From Thermoleophilia bacterium (lineage in GTDB: Bacteria > Actinomycetota > Thermoleophilia > Gaiellales > SKUG01), in assembly GCA_025964555.1 (NCBI GenBank), contig JAOPYQ010000031.1, forward strand, positions 1 through 64,000: DNA of 64,000 nt. The letters run 5' to 3'. The notes under the pieces are model-generated. The model was not told the DNA's origin, did no database searches, and saw nothing but the letters and a program-made list of their open reading frames with translations. This document shows positions 20,016-27,379 of this stretch, in pieces. Position 1 is the first letter of the stretch; each line of letters starts with the position of its first letter. The position numbers and the translations under genes were made by a program.

Positions 20016-21761
20016 CTAGCTGAGTGACAGGATCCGGTCGGCGATCTCGCGCGCGCTCGCTGCGCGAAGGTCACCGGTGACGTTCGGTCCGTCCGACAGG
20101 AACGTCATCGGCAGGCCGAGCCGGAAACCCAAGTTGAGGATCTCACCGATCCATCGGCTCTCGTCGATTCGGCTCACCACCATGCGATTGGCGCCGAGCG
20201 GGCGGAACCGTTCGACGATCGAACTCGCCTCGCGGGTGCTCGTCGCCATGGGCAGCACGACGTGCACGTCGTCGGCGCCGATCGCCATGAGGCAGGTCTG
20301 GACCTGCTGGTAGGTGGCGGAGTCGAGGTAGGTCGATGCGGGGGTGTCGACGAGGACGAGGTCGTGCTCGTCGAATGCGTTGACCGCCTCGATGGCCTGG
20401 GCGGAGCTGGCGGCGTAGCGAACGTCGCAGTCGAGGTCGCTGAAGCTGCGATCGGCGACGATCGACACGCCGGGATCGGCGGAGACGATCGAGATGATGC
20501 CGACGCGCATGCCGGCGGCGGCGTACTGGCCGGCGACCTTGGTGACGACGGTCGTCTTGCCTGCGTTGGCGGCGCCCACGAACGCGACGCGGTGCGCGCG
20601 GCCGAGGTCGGCGAAGCCGGTGCGGACCGAGAGGCTCTCCTCCACCATCGAGCGCATGAGCGTGGCGATGTCCTGCTCGCCACCGAACGGGCGGCGGTGG
20701 CGAACGGCGGTGTCGACGAGCGCGTCGATCACGTCCTGGTCGACGCCGACGTCGGTGAGGCGCGCGGTGATCGGCGCGAGCTCGGTGTCGAGCTGCTCGA
20801 TGACGTTCTGGATGCGGGCGTCGAAGCTCGTGGCGGCCTCGGCCTGCTGGGAGCGGCGCGTGGCGTGCACGACGCTGCGCAGGGCGGCCATGGCCTTGAG
20901 GTCGATCGTGTCGACCGCGGCGTTGAGCGCCTCGGTGAGCTCGTGGTTGGTGGAGCGCGGCATCGCGAGGTCGGTGCGCAGCGCGTGCTCGACCGTGGTT
21001 GCGGCGTGCTCGAGTGCGGGCACGGCCTGCGGCACGAAGCCCTGCATCGGGGTGTCCTCCACCGACGCGGCGAAGGTGCGGGTGTAGTCGACCTGCGGAT
21101 CACGCGGCAGCGCACGCGGCGGTGCGTAGGTGCCGGCGGCGGGCGCCTGCTCCATGCGCGCGGTGGCGTGCTGCATATGCTGGTGGGCGCGCTCGGCGAG
21201 TGCATGCGCCTGTGCGAGCGGATCGAGGGCGGGAGCCGGAGCCGGAGCGGCGACGGGCGCCGCGAGGGCGGCCTGCATCGGCGCGGTCGGCTGCGGGACG
21301 GTCATCGGCTGGGTGTGGATCGGCGTTCGCGCGACCACGGGAACGTCAAGCTCCGAGAAACCTGCGGTTGCGGCGTGCTCGAGCACGCGGCCGTACTCCT
21401 GTGCGAGCTCGGCATCCTGCGAGGGATCCCACTCGTCGGTGACGTCGAGGCCGCCGACGCGACCCATCTTCATGGCGCCGGCGAAGCGCTTGGCGAGTTC
21501 GGGGGCGGCGTCGTCGCCACCGTCGTCGTCGGCGTCGAGGTCGGCGTTGCCCATGAACTGGTCCTCGAGGTCGACGAGCATCTCGTCGCTCGGCATCTCG
21601 TCGGCAGCGGTGACCTCGATGACCTTGGTCCCGAAGAACCCGGCGACGCCGCCCTGCACCTTGGTGCGCTGACCCACGACGACCGCGTTCGGCCCGAGCT
21701 CCTCGCGAATCTGCGGCAGTACCTCTTCGAGGCTGCGACCCTGGAACGTCTTGATCCTCAC
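20016..21761 (-). CDS. flhF: Flagellar SRP-like GTPase FlhF
   Basis: MRIKTFQGRSLEEVLPQIREELGPNAVVVGQRTK; VAFVGAANAGKTTVVTKVAGQYA; LVLVDTPAS. Confidence 0.9.
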   Translation of the reverse strand: MRIKTFQGRSLEEVLPQIREELGPNAVVVGQRTKVQGGVAGFFGTKVIEVTAADEMPSDEMLVDLEDQFMGNADLDADDDGGDDAAPELAKRFAGAMKMGRVGGLDVTDEWDPSQDAELAQEYGRVLEHAATAGFSELDVPVVARTPIHTQPMTVPQPTAPMQAALAAPVAAPAPAPALDPLAQAHALAERAHQHMQHATARMEQAPAAGTYAPPRALPRDPQVDYTRTFAASVEDTPMQGFVPQAVPALEHAATTVEHALRTDLAMPRSTNHELTEALNAAVDTIDLKAMAALRSVVHATRRSQQAEAATSFDARIQNVIEQLDTELAPITARLTDVGVDQDVIDALVDTAVRHRRPFGGEQDIATLMRSMVEESLSVRTGFADLGRAHRVAFVGAANAGKTTVVTKVAGQYAAAGMRVGIISIVSADPGVSIVADRSFSDLDCDVRYAASSAQAIEAVNAFDEHDLVLVDTPASTYLDSATYQQVQTCLMAIGADDVHVVLPMATSTREASSIVERFRPLGANRMVVSRIDESRWIGEILNLGFRLGLPMTFLSDGPNVTGDLRAASAREIADRILSLS

Positions 21762-23911
21762 GCGCTCACCATCCCGGCGTCACCTGCCATTGCACTGCCC
21801 GACCCGTCGAGGGACACGCGTGCGACCATCTGGATGTCCACATCTCGCTGGATCTCGTTGTACGAGACCACGGCGAGTCGCGGCAGCACCGGCTCGCTCA
21901 CCTGCTTGAGGTGACGGCGAACCTTTGCCGAGCACAGCACAACAGGCACCATGCCCTGCATGGATACCCGTTCGTAATCTCCCTTTAACGCAGTGAGGAC
22001 GGAATTCACGGTGCCGGGATCGAGGTTGAGATACGAGCCGTCGCCGGTCTGGACGACGGCGTCGCCCAGCATGGCCTCGAGTGGGCCGTCGAGCGTGATC
22101 GCGTAGAGCACGTTGCCGGGTGCGAGGTAGGGGCGCAGGATCGATCGGGCGAGCGTCTGGCGGCAGTAGTCGGCGAGCAGGCCGATGTCCTTGGTGAGGC
22201 GGCCCTTGTCGGCGAGCGTCTCGACGACGGACGCGAGGTCGCGGATCCCGACGCCCTCGGCGAGCAGCGACTGCAGGACGCGGTGGACCTCGCCCAGGCC
22301 GAGCACGTCGGGAACGAGCTCCTCGACGGCTGCCGGGTAGCGCTCCTTGAGCGCGTCGAGCAAGCCGCGCACGTCCTGGCGCGTGAGCAGGTCGGGCGCG
22401 TGCTGGCGGATCGTCTCGGTGAGGTGCGTGACGATGATCGAGGCGGGATCGACGACGGTGTAGCCCATGGATTCGGCGCGCTCCTTGACGGCAGCCGGGA
22501 TCCAAAGGGCGGGGAGGCCGAAGGCGGGCTCGGTGGTGGGCGTGCCGTCGAGGCCGGGCTCGGCGTCGCCGGGGTTCATGGCGAGCCAGCAACCCGGCAG
22601 CAGCGAGCCGACGACGATCTGGGCGCCCTTGAGCTTGAAGGAGTACTCGTGCGAGGCGAGCTGCACGTTGTCGCGGATGCGGATCGGCGAGAGCACCATG
22701 CCGAGGTCGAGCGCGATCTGGCGGCGGATCATGCTGACGCGCTTGAGCAGGTCGCCACCCTGCTCCTCGTCCACGAGCGAGATGAGGCCGTAGCCGATCT
22801 CGAGCTCGAGCACGTCGAGCGGGAGCAGGCCCTTGACGTTCTCGATGGTGGGCGTGCCCTCCTCTTTCGGCGGCTCCATCGCGGCGACCTCGGCGGCGAG
22901 GCGGTCGCGCTCCTGGGCGCGGCGCAGGACGGTGCCGATGGCGAACAGCAGGATCGACATGCCGATGAACGGGATCTTGGGCAGGCCGGGCAGCAGGCCG
23001 AGCCCGCCGAGCACGCCGGAGACGATGAGGATCGCCTTCGGGTAGCGGGTGAACTGCACGGCGAGGTCGCCACCGAGGTTGGACGCGCCGTCGCCGGCGG
23101 CTCGCGTGACGATGATGCCGGTGGCGGTCGAGATGAGCAGCGCCGGGATCGCGGCGGCGAGGGCGTCGCCGATCGAGAGGGTCGAGAAGCGCTGGACCGA
23201 TTCGGAGAAGCCGAGCCCCTGCTGGACCATGCCGACGATCATGCCGCCGAAGAGGTTGATGAGCGTGATGATCACGGCGGCGATCGCGTCGCCCTTCACG
23301 AACTTCGCGGCACCGTCCATGGAGCCGTAGAAGTCGGCTTCGCGCTGGATCTCGAGGCGGCGCTCGCGGGCCTGCTCGTCGGTGATCTGGCCGGCGTTGA
23401 GGTCGGCGTCGATCGCCATCTGCTTGCCCGGCATGGCGTCCAGGGTGAAACGGGCGGCGACTTCCGCGACGCGGCCGGCACCGTTCGTGATGACCACGAA
23501 CTGCACGACCATGAGGATGAAGAACACGACGAGGCCGACCACGATGGAGCCGCCGATGACGAACCCGCCGAAGCTCTCGACGACTTGGCCGGCGTCGCCC
23601 TTGAGCAGGATGAGGCGCGTCACCGAGATGTTGATCGCGAGGCGGAAGAGCGTGGTGATGAGCAGCAGCGTCGGGAAGGCGCTGAAGTCGAGTGCCTTCT
23701 GTGCATAGACCGAGATGAGGACGATCGACAGCGCTGCGGCGATGTTGAGCGTGATGAACAGGTCCAGCAGCACGTGCGGGATCGGCACGATCATCATGAT
23801 GACGATGGTGACGATGCCGAGGGCGACGAGCAGGTCGCTCTGGCGCAGGACGCGGCCGAGCAGGCCGAGACCGGCGGGGCCTGACGCGTTCGCTGTGGTC
23901 GTGTCGCTCAT
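21758..23911 (-). CDS. flhA: Flagellar export protein FlhA
   Basis: Multi-TM N-terminus, VVITNGAGRVAEVAARFTLDAMPGKQMAIDADLNAGQI. Confidence 0.96.
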   Translation of the reverse strand: MSDTTTANASGPAGLGLLGRVLRQSDLLVALGIVTIVIMMIVPIPHVLLDLFITLNIAAALSIVLISVYAQKALDFSAFPTLLLITTLFRLAINISVTRLILLKGDAGQVVESFGGFVIGGSIVVGLVVFFILMVVQFVVITNGAGRVAEVAARFTLDAMPGKQMAIDADLNAGQITDEQARERRLEIQREADFYGSMDGAAKFVKGDAIAAVIITLINLFGGMIVGMVQQGLGFSESVQRFSTLSIGDALAAAIPALLISTATGIIVTRAAGDGASNLGGDLAVQFTRYPKAILIVSGVLGGLGLLPGLPKIPFIGMSILLFAIGTVLRRAQERDRLAAEVAAMEPPKEEGTPTIENVKGLLPLDVLELEIGYGLISLVDEEQGGDLLKRVSMIRRQIALDLGMVLSPIRIRDNVQLASHEYSFKLKGAQIVVGSLLPGCWLAMNPGDAEPGLDGTPTTEPAFGLPALWIPAAVKERAESMGYTVVDPASIIVTHLTETIRQHAPDLLTRQDVRGLLDALKERYPAAVEELVPDVLGLGEVHRVLQSLLAEGVGIRDLASVVETLADKGRLTKDIGLLADYCRQTLARSILRPYLAPGNVLYAITLDGPLEAMLGDAVVQTGDGSYLNLDPGTVNSVLTALKGDYERVSMQGMVPVVLCSAKVRRHLKQVSEPVLPRLAVVSYNEIQRDVDIQMVARVSLDGSGSAMAGDAGMVSA

Positions 23912-24150: not shown

Positions 24151-24199
24151 GATGTGAGTCGAGTTCACCCCGCTCCGCGGGGAAAAGTCGACGCACACC
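24151..24199. repeat. 49-bp imperfect palindrome, A1
   Basis: GATGTGAGTCGAGTTCACCCCGCTCCGCGGGGAAAAGTCGACGCACACC; inverted near-copy of A2. Confidence 0.8.
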
Positions 24200-24259
24200 G
24201 CGTATTTCCATCACACTGGACGTATTGCAAGGAACTGGATCCCGTCGTACCGTGGAGCC

Positions 24260-25150
24260 ATGACCTCCCCCAGGGTCGATGGTGCGTACCCCCACCGCAC
24301 CGGCGCCGCAGGCGCCTCCTCCACGGGTTCGAGCCCGCGCATCGGCGCGGACGCCAAGGCACGCTCCAATCAGCTCGCACAGCAGTTCGCGGCGCAGATC
24401 GAGATGTCGATGATGAAGTCGCTCAGCGAGATGGGCGCATCCGACGAATCCGACGAATCCGGCGACGGCGGCGAGGACGGCGGCGGCAGCTCCGACCTCG
24501 GCCTCGATCCCGGCATGCAGCAGATGCTGCTCATGACCTCCTTGTTCGCAGGCGCAGCCAAGGGTGGTGGTTCAGCCGCGGAGGTCCAGGCACGGCTCGC
24601 CGCCTTTGGCGGCGGCGGAGCAGGCGGCATGGGCGCGCTGACAGGCGCCGGCGCGGGATCCGAGGCCCAGCTCGCGCAGCAACTGCTCGGCACGTTGGGT
24701 GCGGCAGGAACCGAAGGCGCGGCGCCTGGCGCGGCTGCGACCCCCTTCTCGGGCGCTGTCGATCGAGGTGCCGCGGCCAACGCGCAGATCGTCGCCCAGG
24801 TCGCCCGCGAGAAGGGGGTCGACCCGGTCGCCGCCGTGGCGATGATGCTCGTCGAGAGCGGCGGTCGATCCACTGCGTCCGGCGACGGCGGCACGAGCTT
24901 CGGGCTCTTCCAGCTGCACGAGGGCGGCATGTTGACCGCGGCCGGCCTGACCAAGGAGCAAGCCTTCGATCCACGCACCAACGCGTCGGTCTCGCTGAGT
25001 TCGCTCCGCCACGAGTGGGACAAGGGTCACGCGAGCCGGACGCCCGGACAGATCGCGGCTGCATCGCAGCGCCCCGCCGACCCTGTCGGGTACGCAGCCA
25101 AGGTCGACGGCGCGATGGACCGCGCCCGCGCGCTGCTCGGCGGCGGCTGA
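24260..25150 (+). CDS. Lysozyme-like/lytic transglycosylase-like protein
   Basis: C-terminal VAQVAREKGVDPVAAVAMMLVESGGRSTASGDGGTSFGLFQLHEGG. Confidence 0.6.
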   Translation: MTSPRVDGAYPHRTGAAGASSTGSSPRIGADAKARSNQLAQQFAAQIEMSMMKSLSEMGASDESDESGDGGEDGGGSSDLGLDPGMQQMLLMTSLFAGAAKGGGSAAEVQARLAAFGGGGAGGMGALTGAGAGSEAQLAQQLLGTLGAAGTEGAAPGAAATPFSGAVDRGAAANAQIVAQVAREKGVDPVAAVAMMLVESGGRSTASGDGGTSFGLFQLHEGGMLTAAGLTKEQAFDPRTNASVSLSSLRHEWDKGHASRTPGQIAAASQRPADPVGYAAKVDGAMDRARALLGGG

Positions 25151-25157
25151 CAGCGCT

Positions 25158-26042
25158 TCAAGGTGTCAGCCCAAACACGCGCAGGACGGCATCGGTGTCG
25201 CGGCGCCTGCTCCGCGCATCGATCCGCATGACACGGAGTCCGATCGACTCGAGCAGCTCCGTCTTCCGCTCGTCATCGACTTTCGTGCGCCGCCGCTGGT
25301 GCGGTCGACCGTCGATCTCAACGACGAGACCATGCGCCTCGAACAGCAGGTCGGGACGAATCCTGCGTCCCCCGATCGTCACGCGAGGCGTGATTCGCGG
25401 CATCGGCGCGCCGCGTTCGAGCAGGTCGTCGAGCACACGACGCTCGAGGTGACTCTGGGTGCCTGCGCTCTCCGATCGATTGAGCGCCAACGCATTCGAG
25501 ATCCGCCGGTGTGCGGGCCCGCGCCGCGTGCGGTGTCGCCGGATGCTCGCGCGAAGCGCGCGTACATTGAGCAGGTCGAGGAGGTCGAGCTCGTGCATGA
25601 CGTCCGCGAGCTCGGTGACGACCGTCGTGTCAGCCATGTCGACGAGCATTCTCGGCACGGACGTGACCGGGATCCCGTCGACGAAGCCGGCTTCGGATGG
25701 GTGGATGCTTCTGGTGGATCGAATCGACACGTCATCGGCGCGGCAGGTCGATCGCGTGGTGATGACCACGTCGATCTTCGTCGGTGCACGTCGGACAGCG
25801 CGTCGCAGCCACGCCGCTGCGCGACCAGTGACGAACGCGCACCCGTCGGGGTGGGCGAGGACCGCGGCCATGCAACGTCCGTGAAACGAGAGCGCGTCAT
25901 GCCCGACTGCACAGACGCCTCGTCGGACCGGCACGAGGAAGGCTCGAGTGATCCATCGGTCGATGCGACCACTCGGGACGCCCTGTTCGACCAGTTGGCG
26001 GCGCGCGACGACGCCATGTTGACGAGCGGCGAGGTCGCTCAC
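25158..26042 (-). CDS. AbiEi-type wHTH plus DUF559 (Vsr-like endonuclease fold) protein, copy A
   Basis: LAARQHGVVARRQLVEQGVPSGRIDRWI N-terminus and IRPDLLFEAHGLVVEIDGRPHQRRRTKVDDERKTELLESIGLRVMRIDA C-terminus; ORF extends to 26123 through the palindrome. Confidence 0.8.
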   Translation of the reverse strand: MSDLAARQHGVVARRQLVEQGVPSGRIDRWITRAFLVPVRRGVCAVGHDALSFHGRCMAAVLAHPDGCAFVTGRAAAWLRRAVRRAPTKIDVVITTRSTCRADDVSIRSTRSIHPSEAGFVDGIPVTSVPRMLVDMADTTVVTELADVMHELDLLDLLNVRALRASIRRHRTRRGPAHRRISNALALNRSESAGTQSHLERRVLDDLLERGAPMPRITPRVTIGGRRIRPDLLFEAHGLVVEIDGRPHQRRRTKVDDERKTELLESIGLRVMRIDARSRRRDTDAVLRVFGLTP

Positions 26043-26056
26043 GAGGTGCTCGAGCG

Positions 26057-26105
26057 GATGTGGGTCGACTTTCCCCCGCTCCGCGGGGCGAACTCGACTC
26101 ACATC
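26057..26105. repeat. 49-bp imperfect palindrome, A2
   Basis: GATGTGGGTCGACTTTCCCCCGCTCCGCGGGGCGAACTCGACTCACATC; ends 15 bp before the inferred start of the DUF559 gene. Confidence 0.8.
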
Positions 26106-26205: not shown

Positions 26206-26276
26206 GCGGCTGCGCCGCGGGAAGCGGCTGCGCCGCGGGAAGCGGCTGCGCCGCGGAAACGCTGCACCGCGGAAGA
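26206..26276. repeat. 18-bp tandem repeat GCGGCTGCGCCGCGGGAA x3 plus degenerate units
   Basis: Direct reading. Confidence 0.9.
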
Positions 26277-26278
26277 CG

Positions 26279-27379
26279 CTACGCCGCGATGCTCGGGCGG
26301 ACGTGCTCGCCGGCGGCGCGCTTGCGCTCTTCGGCGCGGTAGACGAAGGCGAGGACCTCGGCGACGGCTGCGTACAGCTCGGCCGGGATGAGGTGGCCGA
26401 CCTCGACGCTGGCGTACAGCTCTCGGGCGAGGGCTCGGTTCTCCACGCGCATGACGCCGGCCTCGTCGGCGATCTCGCGGATGCGCATCGCGAGCAGGTC
26501 GACACCCTTGGCGACGACCTTCGGTGCGCCGGTCTCCGAGTCGTACTTGAGCGCGACCGAGTAGTGCGTCGGGTTGGTGATGACGACGTCGGCGAGCGGC
26601 ACGTCGGCGAGCATGCGGCGCCTGGCCATGTCGCGCTGGCGACGTCGCTGGGCGGCCTTCATCTCGGGCGCGAGTTCCTGCTGCTTGTACTCCTGCTTGA
26701 CCTCGTGCTTGGTCATGCGCAGGTTCTTCTCGTAGCGATGGCGCTGGTAGAGGTAGTCGATGATCGCGATCGTCACGTAGATGCCCGCCACGCGGAAGCC
26801 GATCGACATGATGATGTCGACCGTCACCAGTCCAGCCGCGATCGGTTCGGCATCGCCGAGCGACAGCAGCTCGTTGCGGCGCTGCCACACGATCATCGAG
26901 GCCGGGATGCCCACCGCCATCATCTTGAGCAGGCTCTTGGCGAGCTCGAAGTAGGCGGCCGGTCCGAAGCGCTGCTTGGCGCCGCTGATCGGATTGAGCT
27001 TGGAGAAGCGCGGCTTGATGACGCTCGGCGTGATCTTCGGCTTGACCTGCAGCACGCTCGCGAGCACGCCGACGACGAGCATCCCGACCATGATCGGCGC
27101 CGTGACGAATGCCATCAAGCGCATCACGTCGGCGAACATCGTCATCGTGTCGTTGATCGTGAAGTCGCTCGTGCCGACCGTCCCGAGCGAGCGGAGGCGC
27201 GTGACCATGTCCTCCTGCAGGCGCGACCAGATGCCGGGACCCCAGACGCTCAGGATGCCGAACGCGGCGAGCATGGCGAAGGCGCTGTTGATCTCCATGC
27301 TGCGCAGGACGTTGCCCTCCTTGCGCGCTTCCTCACGGCGTTTCGGTGTCGCCTTCTCGGTCTTGTCGTCACCTGCCAT
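26279..27379 (-). CDS. flhB: Flagellar export switch protein FlhB
   Basis: MAGDDKTEKATPKRREEARKEGNV; VVITNPTHYSVALKYD (NPTH autocleavage). Confidence 0.96.
   Translation of the reverse strand: MAGDDKTEKATPKRREEARKEGNVLRSMEINSAFAMLAAFGILSVWGPGIWSRLQEDMVTRLRSLGTVGTSDFTINDTMTMFADVMRLMAFVTAPIMVGMLVVGVLASVLQVKPKITPSVIKPRFSKLNPISGAKQRFGPAAYFELAKSLLKMMAVGIPASMIVWQRRNELLSLGDAEPIAAGLVTVDIIMSIGFRVAGIYVTIAIIDYLYQRHRYEKNLRMTKHEVKQEYKQQELAPEMKAAQRRRQRDMARRRMLADVPLADVVITNPTHYSVALKYDSETGAPKVVAKGVDLLAMRIREIADEAGVMRVENRALARELYASVEVGHLIPAELYAAVAEVLAFVYRAEERKRAAGEHVRPSIAA

Follow-up and report, generated by a model that had tools for sequence, protein, structure and literature searches.

Locus-specific palindromes on both flanks of predicted DUF559 nuclease genes: a possible HUH-independent counterpart of the REPtron

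Why should a lysozyme-like gene and a DUF559 gene stand between flhB and flhA, and why should two palindromes enclose the pair? The question is raised by positions 24151-26105 of the window, by which is meant the whole stretch of 64,000 nucleotides from a Thermoleophilia bacterium that was analysed. The DUF559 family is large, and its members are known chiefly as predicted nucleases (PMC1189080). The features at this place are the following.

21758-23911, minus strand: flhA, left neighbour of the block
24151-24199, no strand: palindrome A1, in the divergent intergenic region between flhA and the SLT ORF
24260-25150, plus strand: SLT/lysozyme-like ORF, between A1 and DUF559 gene A
25158 to about 26042, minus strand: DUF559 gene A, with a likely GTG start at 26042
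26057-26105, no strand: palindrome A2, 15 bp upstream of DUF559 gene A
26279-27379, minus strand: flhB, right neighbour of the block

The layout proposed by a sequence-only reading of the window is borne out. A1 and A2, about 49 bp each, have the core CCCCGCTCCGCGGGG and arms of the form GTGnGTCGA...TCGACnCAC in common; ORF and Pfam matches confirm a lysozyme-like and a DUF559 gene between them, in a block that splits flhB from flhA; and A2 does end 15 bp ahead of the DUF559 start, if the likely GTG is the one used. The two copies had also been called inverted, which is right, but since the copies are themselves palindromic the inversion is only slight (87% over 47 nt inverted versus 82% over 51 nt direct). 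Taken alone, the short core has 2 matches in the window against 1.5 expected, which is not a significant excess. The segment from A1 to A2 has palindromic ends and holds no known transposase domain, and no target-site duplication, the mark of a classical insertion sequence, was seen next to either palindrome. The SLT-like ORF matches SLT_3 at 25.7 bits, slightly below the cut-off of 27 bits, and is probably cargo or a bystander, since its homologues in genus mates stand in unrelated contexts, beside enolase, topoisomerase IB or RTX genes; the idea that it is a flagellar core gene was dropped on the same grounds. An 18-bp unit (GCGGCTGCGCCGCGGGAA) stands three times in tandem at positions 26206-26259, between A2 and the flhB end.

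The product of DUF559 gene A matches PF04480 at 27.5 bits, above the 20.6-bit cut-off, and its candidate catalytic residues appear intact: E200, D231, D244 and H248 are invariant, and E242 nearly so, in 17 paralogous proteins. An AlphaFold model of the 294-residue protein, made with the 17-row alignment, has a mean pLDDT of 90.5 and suggests two parts. Residues 1 to about 190 are predicted to form an AbiEi-like winged helix followed by an AbiEi domain, and match the AbiEi antitoxin 6y8q (Foldseek E 4.8e-6) and Rv2827c (1zel). The C-terminal domain is predicted to be a PD-(D/E)XK fold of the Vsr/homing-endonuclease kind, resembling the catalytic domain of I-Bth0305I and Vsr with weak E-values and a consistent fold, and in the Thermoleophilia proteins it is homologous to short YcjD-type DUF559 proteins (hhalign 98.8%). 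The PADLOC models for AbiEi (1.1e-13) and for a methyl-directed restriction enzyme both match the protein, and NCBIfam holds no model for the Thermoleophilia proteins. Beside gene A, whose neighbours are the SLT ORF, flhB and flhA, there is no AbiEii (DUF1814) toxin gene. AbiEi proteins and Rv2827c are known to bind inverted repeats in their own promoters (PMC7319586).

A second DUF559 gene in the window had been credited with a separate palindrome family, B, and this family is indeed present there, as one doublet upstream and another downstream of the gene.

52956-52998, no strand: palindrome B1, upstream of DUF559 gene B
53017-53059, no strand: palindrome B2, forming a doublet with B1
53163-54128, plus strand: DUF559 gene B, with an AbiEi-like N-terminus and DUF559
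54121-54163, no strand: palindrome B3, overlapping the stop codon of gene B
54192-54234, no strand: palindrome B4, forming a doublet with B3

When flank comparison was slid along the window as a control, the A locus came out on top with a score of 29; the B locus scored 18, tied with an unrelated stretch near 11.5 kb.

This MAG contains six DUF559 genes, five of which are, by eye, bracketed by a repeat that is different each time. For a formal test, the upstream flank of each gene, in the MAG itself and in related genomes (of the same genus, plus one of the same family), was aligned with its own downstream flank, and 462 pairs taken from different genes served as the control; a stricter alignment scoring was used, looser scoring being uninformative in GC-rich DNA. 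As an association, the suggested pairing of every DUF559 paralogue with a cognate palindrome of its own has good support: 13 AbiEi-DUF559 genes (L001, L004, L005, L006, L008, L009, L010, L013, L015, L016, L019, L020 and L021) beat all 462 cross-locus controls, whose maximum was 18, and their palindromes are locus-specific. L002, which is family B of the window, and L014 score 18, equal to the control maximum. No convincing flank pair was found for L007, L012, the short L003, L011 and L018 or the large L022 and L023, the tie of L018 with the control maximum being due to a 21-nt match distant from the gene. The majority of the flank pairs are in direct orientation (L001, L005, L006, L008, L010, L013, L015, L019 and L021). 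A check on co-variation between protein and palindrome gave no significant graded relation (Mantel r 0.14, p 0.07). Overall, most AbiEi-DUF559 genes of this genus, and of one genome of the same family, are bracketed by locus-specific palindromes. Near the short DUF559 gene of the MAG (L003, 595-720) there are tandem GC-rich repeats, GCGCGCAGCGCGCCGTGCC, which by eye are like sequences near the L001 and L006 loci.

Further afield the arrangement is seen less often on both sides of the gene. In other Thermoleophilia families, clear palindromic pairs hug both gene ends in only 5 of 26 loci (L070, L075, L077, L082 and L088), and in 13 of 22 the palindrome upstream is strong, exceeding the 95th percentile of the control stretches (Mann-Whitney p 5e-7). 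A profile search of named genomes with a subset of five of the 17 proteins matched only the same MAGs.

The palindromes also occur away from the genes. A genome-wide pattern search covered families A, B, D and E, four out of five in this genome (the fifth is that of L001), and found low copy numbers, 3 to 8 per family. Allowing 3 mismatches at most, the full 43-nt family A pattern matches the 2.7-Mb MAG at 8 sites and the reversed control pattern at none; neither A nor B, D or E has a copy in four relatives, three of the same genus and one of the same family. Away from the DUF559 gene lie 6 of the 8 copies of A, 3 of the 7 of E, 1 of the 3 of D and one doublet of B, and the form at the gene flank is usually retained in such dispersed copies, which are single for A and D and doublets for B and for one of the two E sites. 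A SWIM-protein gene carries one A copy, in frame, in a linker; three genus mates have orthologues of this gene that are without the copy. Dispersed A copies adjoin unrelated genes, and family A also brackets its DUF559 gene; a palindrome lying next to unrelated genes only, which the sequence-only reading had named as telling against itself, is therefore not what the genome holds. When the eight A copies are aligned, conserved and variable positions are mirrored between the arms, and there is no excess of paired (compensatory) changes, free positions not being kept complementary. With n=8, this is suggestive of a symmetric dimer that recognises the site as duplex, which would fit the copies better than a conserved hairpin. 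The palindromes yielded no clean empty site at the nucleotide level and no clean target-site duplication, and the Y1 transposase (RAYT, PF01797) was absent from all five genomes, the control being positive in E. coli and the MAG 64% complete. Near dispersed A copies, a further family (GTGCGTCG...GTGACGAnnATGACGCAC) is represented by two palindromes of similar sequence, at L034 875-917 and L038 1404-1446; no cognate DUF559 gene was found for them in the MAG at its 64% completeness.

The flhB-flhA junction itself differs from one relative to the next. In two order-level relatives (G006 and G020) the genes are adjacent with a gap of about 60 bp, and in G004 the gap is 330 bp and holds no DUF559 gene. 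The junction of G002 carries a DUF559 homologue, 49% identical and oppositely oriented, between palindromes of a different sequence and with no SLT gene. In G003, the sequence behind flhB is a palindrome doublet that belongs to a DUF559 gene located elsewhere (L021), and there is no DUF559 gene at the junction. Given this variable occupancy, the site appears to have been visited repeatedly by different palindrome families, which argues for mobility. The proposal that the segment could move thus gains support of an indirect kind, from the variable junction and from dispersed, species-specific copies, one of them intragenic.

Is the association peculiar to this clade? A search probe, which was an approximate short DUF559 protein and not a database sequence, matched 43 records in a plasmid collection, some of them whole chromosomes, and in the first ten loci C-rich/G-rich palindromes stood beside most of the DUF559 genes. 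These palindromes are of the BoxC/PIT/TM kind described in PMC4666352, where such repeats were found in more than 260 genomes and to mark unstable, rearrangement-prone loci; that survey reported no mobility function near the repeats and does not mention DUF559, and no link of DUF559 or YcjD to palindromic repeats, BoxC or triplex was found within open-access papers. In the 6.9 kb that lie no more than 250 bp from DUF559, a TM pattern occurred 16 times, versus 4 times in the other 123 kb, and it stood beside DUF559 in 8 of 8 loci of 16 kb from Pseudomonadota and Deinococcota (binomial p 1.6e-17), a value that is optimistic because the pattern was written after some flanks were known and the eight loci were picked from twelve, with L141 and L145 (other palindromes) and L142 and L150 (none) set aside. 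For this reason five unseen loci were held out, of which three carried the fixed pattern, below the predicted at least four of five, one of the three having 15 units in an array after the gene; the other two had variant palindromes on both flanks (one scoring 45, where the controls reached at most 14, the other 20, where they reached 18). Repeats of the BoxC type recur beside DUF559 genes in other phyla. As for the loci set aside, both DUF559 flanks carry their own repeats in the cyanobacterial plasmids L141 and L145, and the DUF559 genes of Synechocystis (L142) and Thermoactinomyces (L150) are without flanking palindromes. A pairing of short DUF559 genes with CGTC-tagged REPs had been expected and was rejected, the CGTC-like core being absent at the genes, where palindromes of the BoxC type stand instead.

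Escherichia coli offers a familiar instance, in that copy #9 of the published BoxC list of MG1655 lies 168 bp from ycjD (chance about 0.003). Of 5426 E. coli genomes, 3331 have most of the ycjD region and the others break next to BoxC; a clean empty site was not obtained in E. coli, the examined strain without ycjD being rearranged. Several short DUF559 genes interrupt operons (suf, pnt and paa).

Individual loci show further peculiarities. In the 3' flank of MG1655 ycjD (L139, 1690-1920), duplicated pieces of the ycjD 3' end (GGAGACGGTGCTGGAGAATATTC...) lie among degenerate BoxC copies, as if the gene end and the palindrome had been copied together. In Photobacterium sp. GJ3 (L164, 8274-9822), 15 BoxC/TM units follow directly 3' of DUF559, with none elsewhere in the 16 kb. 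The position of DUF559 within the hpa cluster of Deinococcus (L140, L143, L144 and L160) varies by species, and in each case the gene runs against the direction of the hpa genes. A DUF559 homologue of N. gonorrhoeae (L133) is bracketed by a direct repeat of more than 100 bp with a BoxC-like palindrome, and further copies of the repeat lie in its 3' flank.

What could hold gene and palindrome together? The explanation that we favour, with a probability of roughly 0.55, is a palindrome-recognising DUF559 nuclease that is bracketed by, and spreads, its own palindrome (a 'DUF559 REPtron'). The main rival, unlikely though to be taken seriously, regards the palindromes as operators by which the AbiEi-like winged helix regulates its own gene, with the remaining copies as incidental targets, or a small regulon. 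It draws on the 15-bp distance between A2 and the start of gene A, on the strong palindromes that 13 of 22 loci in other families have upstream, near the start, and on the promoter-binding habit of AbiEi and Rv2827c, but it does not account for copies at or just past gene 3' ends or for the dispersed A copy within a coding sequence; moreover, short YcjD-type genes, which lack the AbiEi part, show the same pattern, and the nuclease domain would be left unexplained. It is a decidedly unlikely possibility that the association is passive, the palindromes being fragile, recombination-prone sites at which cassettes of any kind, DUF559 included, were inserted or rearranged. Such fragility would suit the rearrangement-prone BoxC/TM loci (PMC4666352) and the polymorphic ycjD region with its break at BoxC, yet it predicts neither a private palindrome on both sides of each paralogue nor a motif that is almost missing from the rest of the 16-kb loci.

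A role in defence or self/non-self marking, with the nuclease cutting DNA that lacks (or bears) its palindrome, is very unlikely: the genes of the window have no AbiEii toxin or methylase beside them, their neighbours are flagellar and housekeeping genes and not a defence island, and the palindromes are very few per genome, even though the protein matches the two PADLOC models and genomes hold many paralogues. There is a very slim chance that the palindromes act as RNA features of the gene unit, for example a small RNA, a terminator or an mRNA-stabilising hairpin. If transcribed, they would fold into strong hairpins, and their place at gene ends is fitting, but family A shows no excess of compensatory changes, there is neither an Rfam match nor a T-run, and locus-specific sequences with dispersed copies would be unexpected for terminators. 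Scarcely credible, finally, is that A1 and A2 are the inverted ends of a flipping segment, as the sequence-only reading had allowed. The two copies are inverted and the G002 homologue is oppositely oriented, but most cognate flank pairs are direct, no recombinase lies in 24151-26105, and the G002 locus is not simply the flipped segment, because its palindrome differs and the SLT gene is absent; inversion of the segment is neither needed nor supported.

For the favoured explanation, a spreading nuclease, we infer that the protein binds its palindrome and cuts there, and that cutting drives the spreading. The DUF559 protein would bind the duplex palindrome symmetrically, in this clade through the AbiEi-type winged-helix part, and short YcjD-type proteins, which are without that part, would need the nuclease domain for this, or else a partner. 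The Vsr/homing-type PD-(D/E)XK domain would then nick or cut at or beside the palindrome, and repair of the break, or replication, may copy or excise palindromes and sometimes the whole unit of palindrome, gene and palindrome, dispersed copies presumably being non-autonomous elements. The upstream palindrome may double as the operator of its own gene, such that spreading and self-regulation may both be true together. The best reading of DUF559 nucleases is as a second, HUH-independent class of REP-associated enzyme. More tentatively, and at somewhat under even odds, DUF559/YcjD proteins may be the dedicated mobility enzymes of a second, HUH-independent superfamily of palindromic repeats, one that includes the orphan BoxC/triplex repeats and extends over at least Actinomycetota, Pseudomonadota, Deinococcota and Cyanobacteriota. 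The link between DUF559 and BoxC gives the family a testable function and the repeats a likely origin, and YcjD of E. coli K-12 makes the idea immediately testable. An independent counterpart to RAYT/REP would also bear on how selfish palindromes and their enzymes persist.

Several known systems invite comparison. With the AbiE type IV toxin-antitoxin systems (PMC7319586) the protein has in common the predicted AbiEi fold of its N-terminal two thirds; the DUF559 locus differs in its added nuclease domain and in palindromes that lie at both gene ends and are dispersed, and it does not belong to AbiE because an adjacent AbiEii (DUF1814) toxin gene is absent. The catalytic domain is akin in fold to Vsr and the Vsr-like homing endonuclease I-Bth0305I, but a homing endonuclease gene splits its own site, whereas the DUF559 gene has intact sites on both sides. 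CGTC-tagged REPs (PMC3733652) have likewise been reported without a dedicated transposase; they differ in short stems of 8-9 bp with an unpaired CGTC tag, and they stay an orphan family because none lies beside DUF559 in the loci examined. The BoxC/PIT/TM repeats (PMC4666352) are closer, since in Pseudomonadota and Deinococcota the palindromes that accompany short DUF559 genes are of the BoxC type, and ycjD of MG1655 has a copy close by, although the palindromes of the window have no third G-rich block and hence are not TM motifs. The closest parallel is the REPtron (RAYT/TnpA_REP with GTAG-tagged REPs; PMC3733652, PMC8266576), in which an enzyme gene is likewise bracketed by cognate short palindromes that are also dispersed, single or in doublets, with several systems per genome and species-specific sequences. 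The DUF559 unit is not filed under RAYT/REP because both the HUH transposase and the GTAG tag are missing: its enzyme is not a Y1 HUH protein but a predicted (Vsr-like) PD-(D/E)XK nuclease joined to an AbiEi-type half for DNA binding, no tag stands at the ends of families A-E, and its palindromes are longer, about 35-52 nt, and apparently conserved as duplex half-sites. Units of this kind, an enzyme gene with cognate palindromes, are already known; what appears to be new is the class of enzyme, the palindromes themselves and the connection with BoxC. In architecture and distribution the DUF559 unit works like a REPtron with another enzyme.
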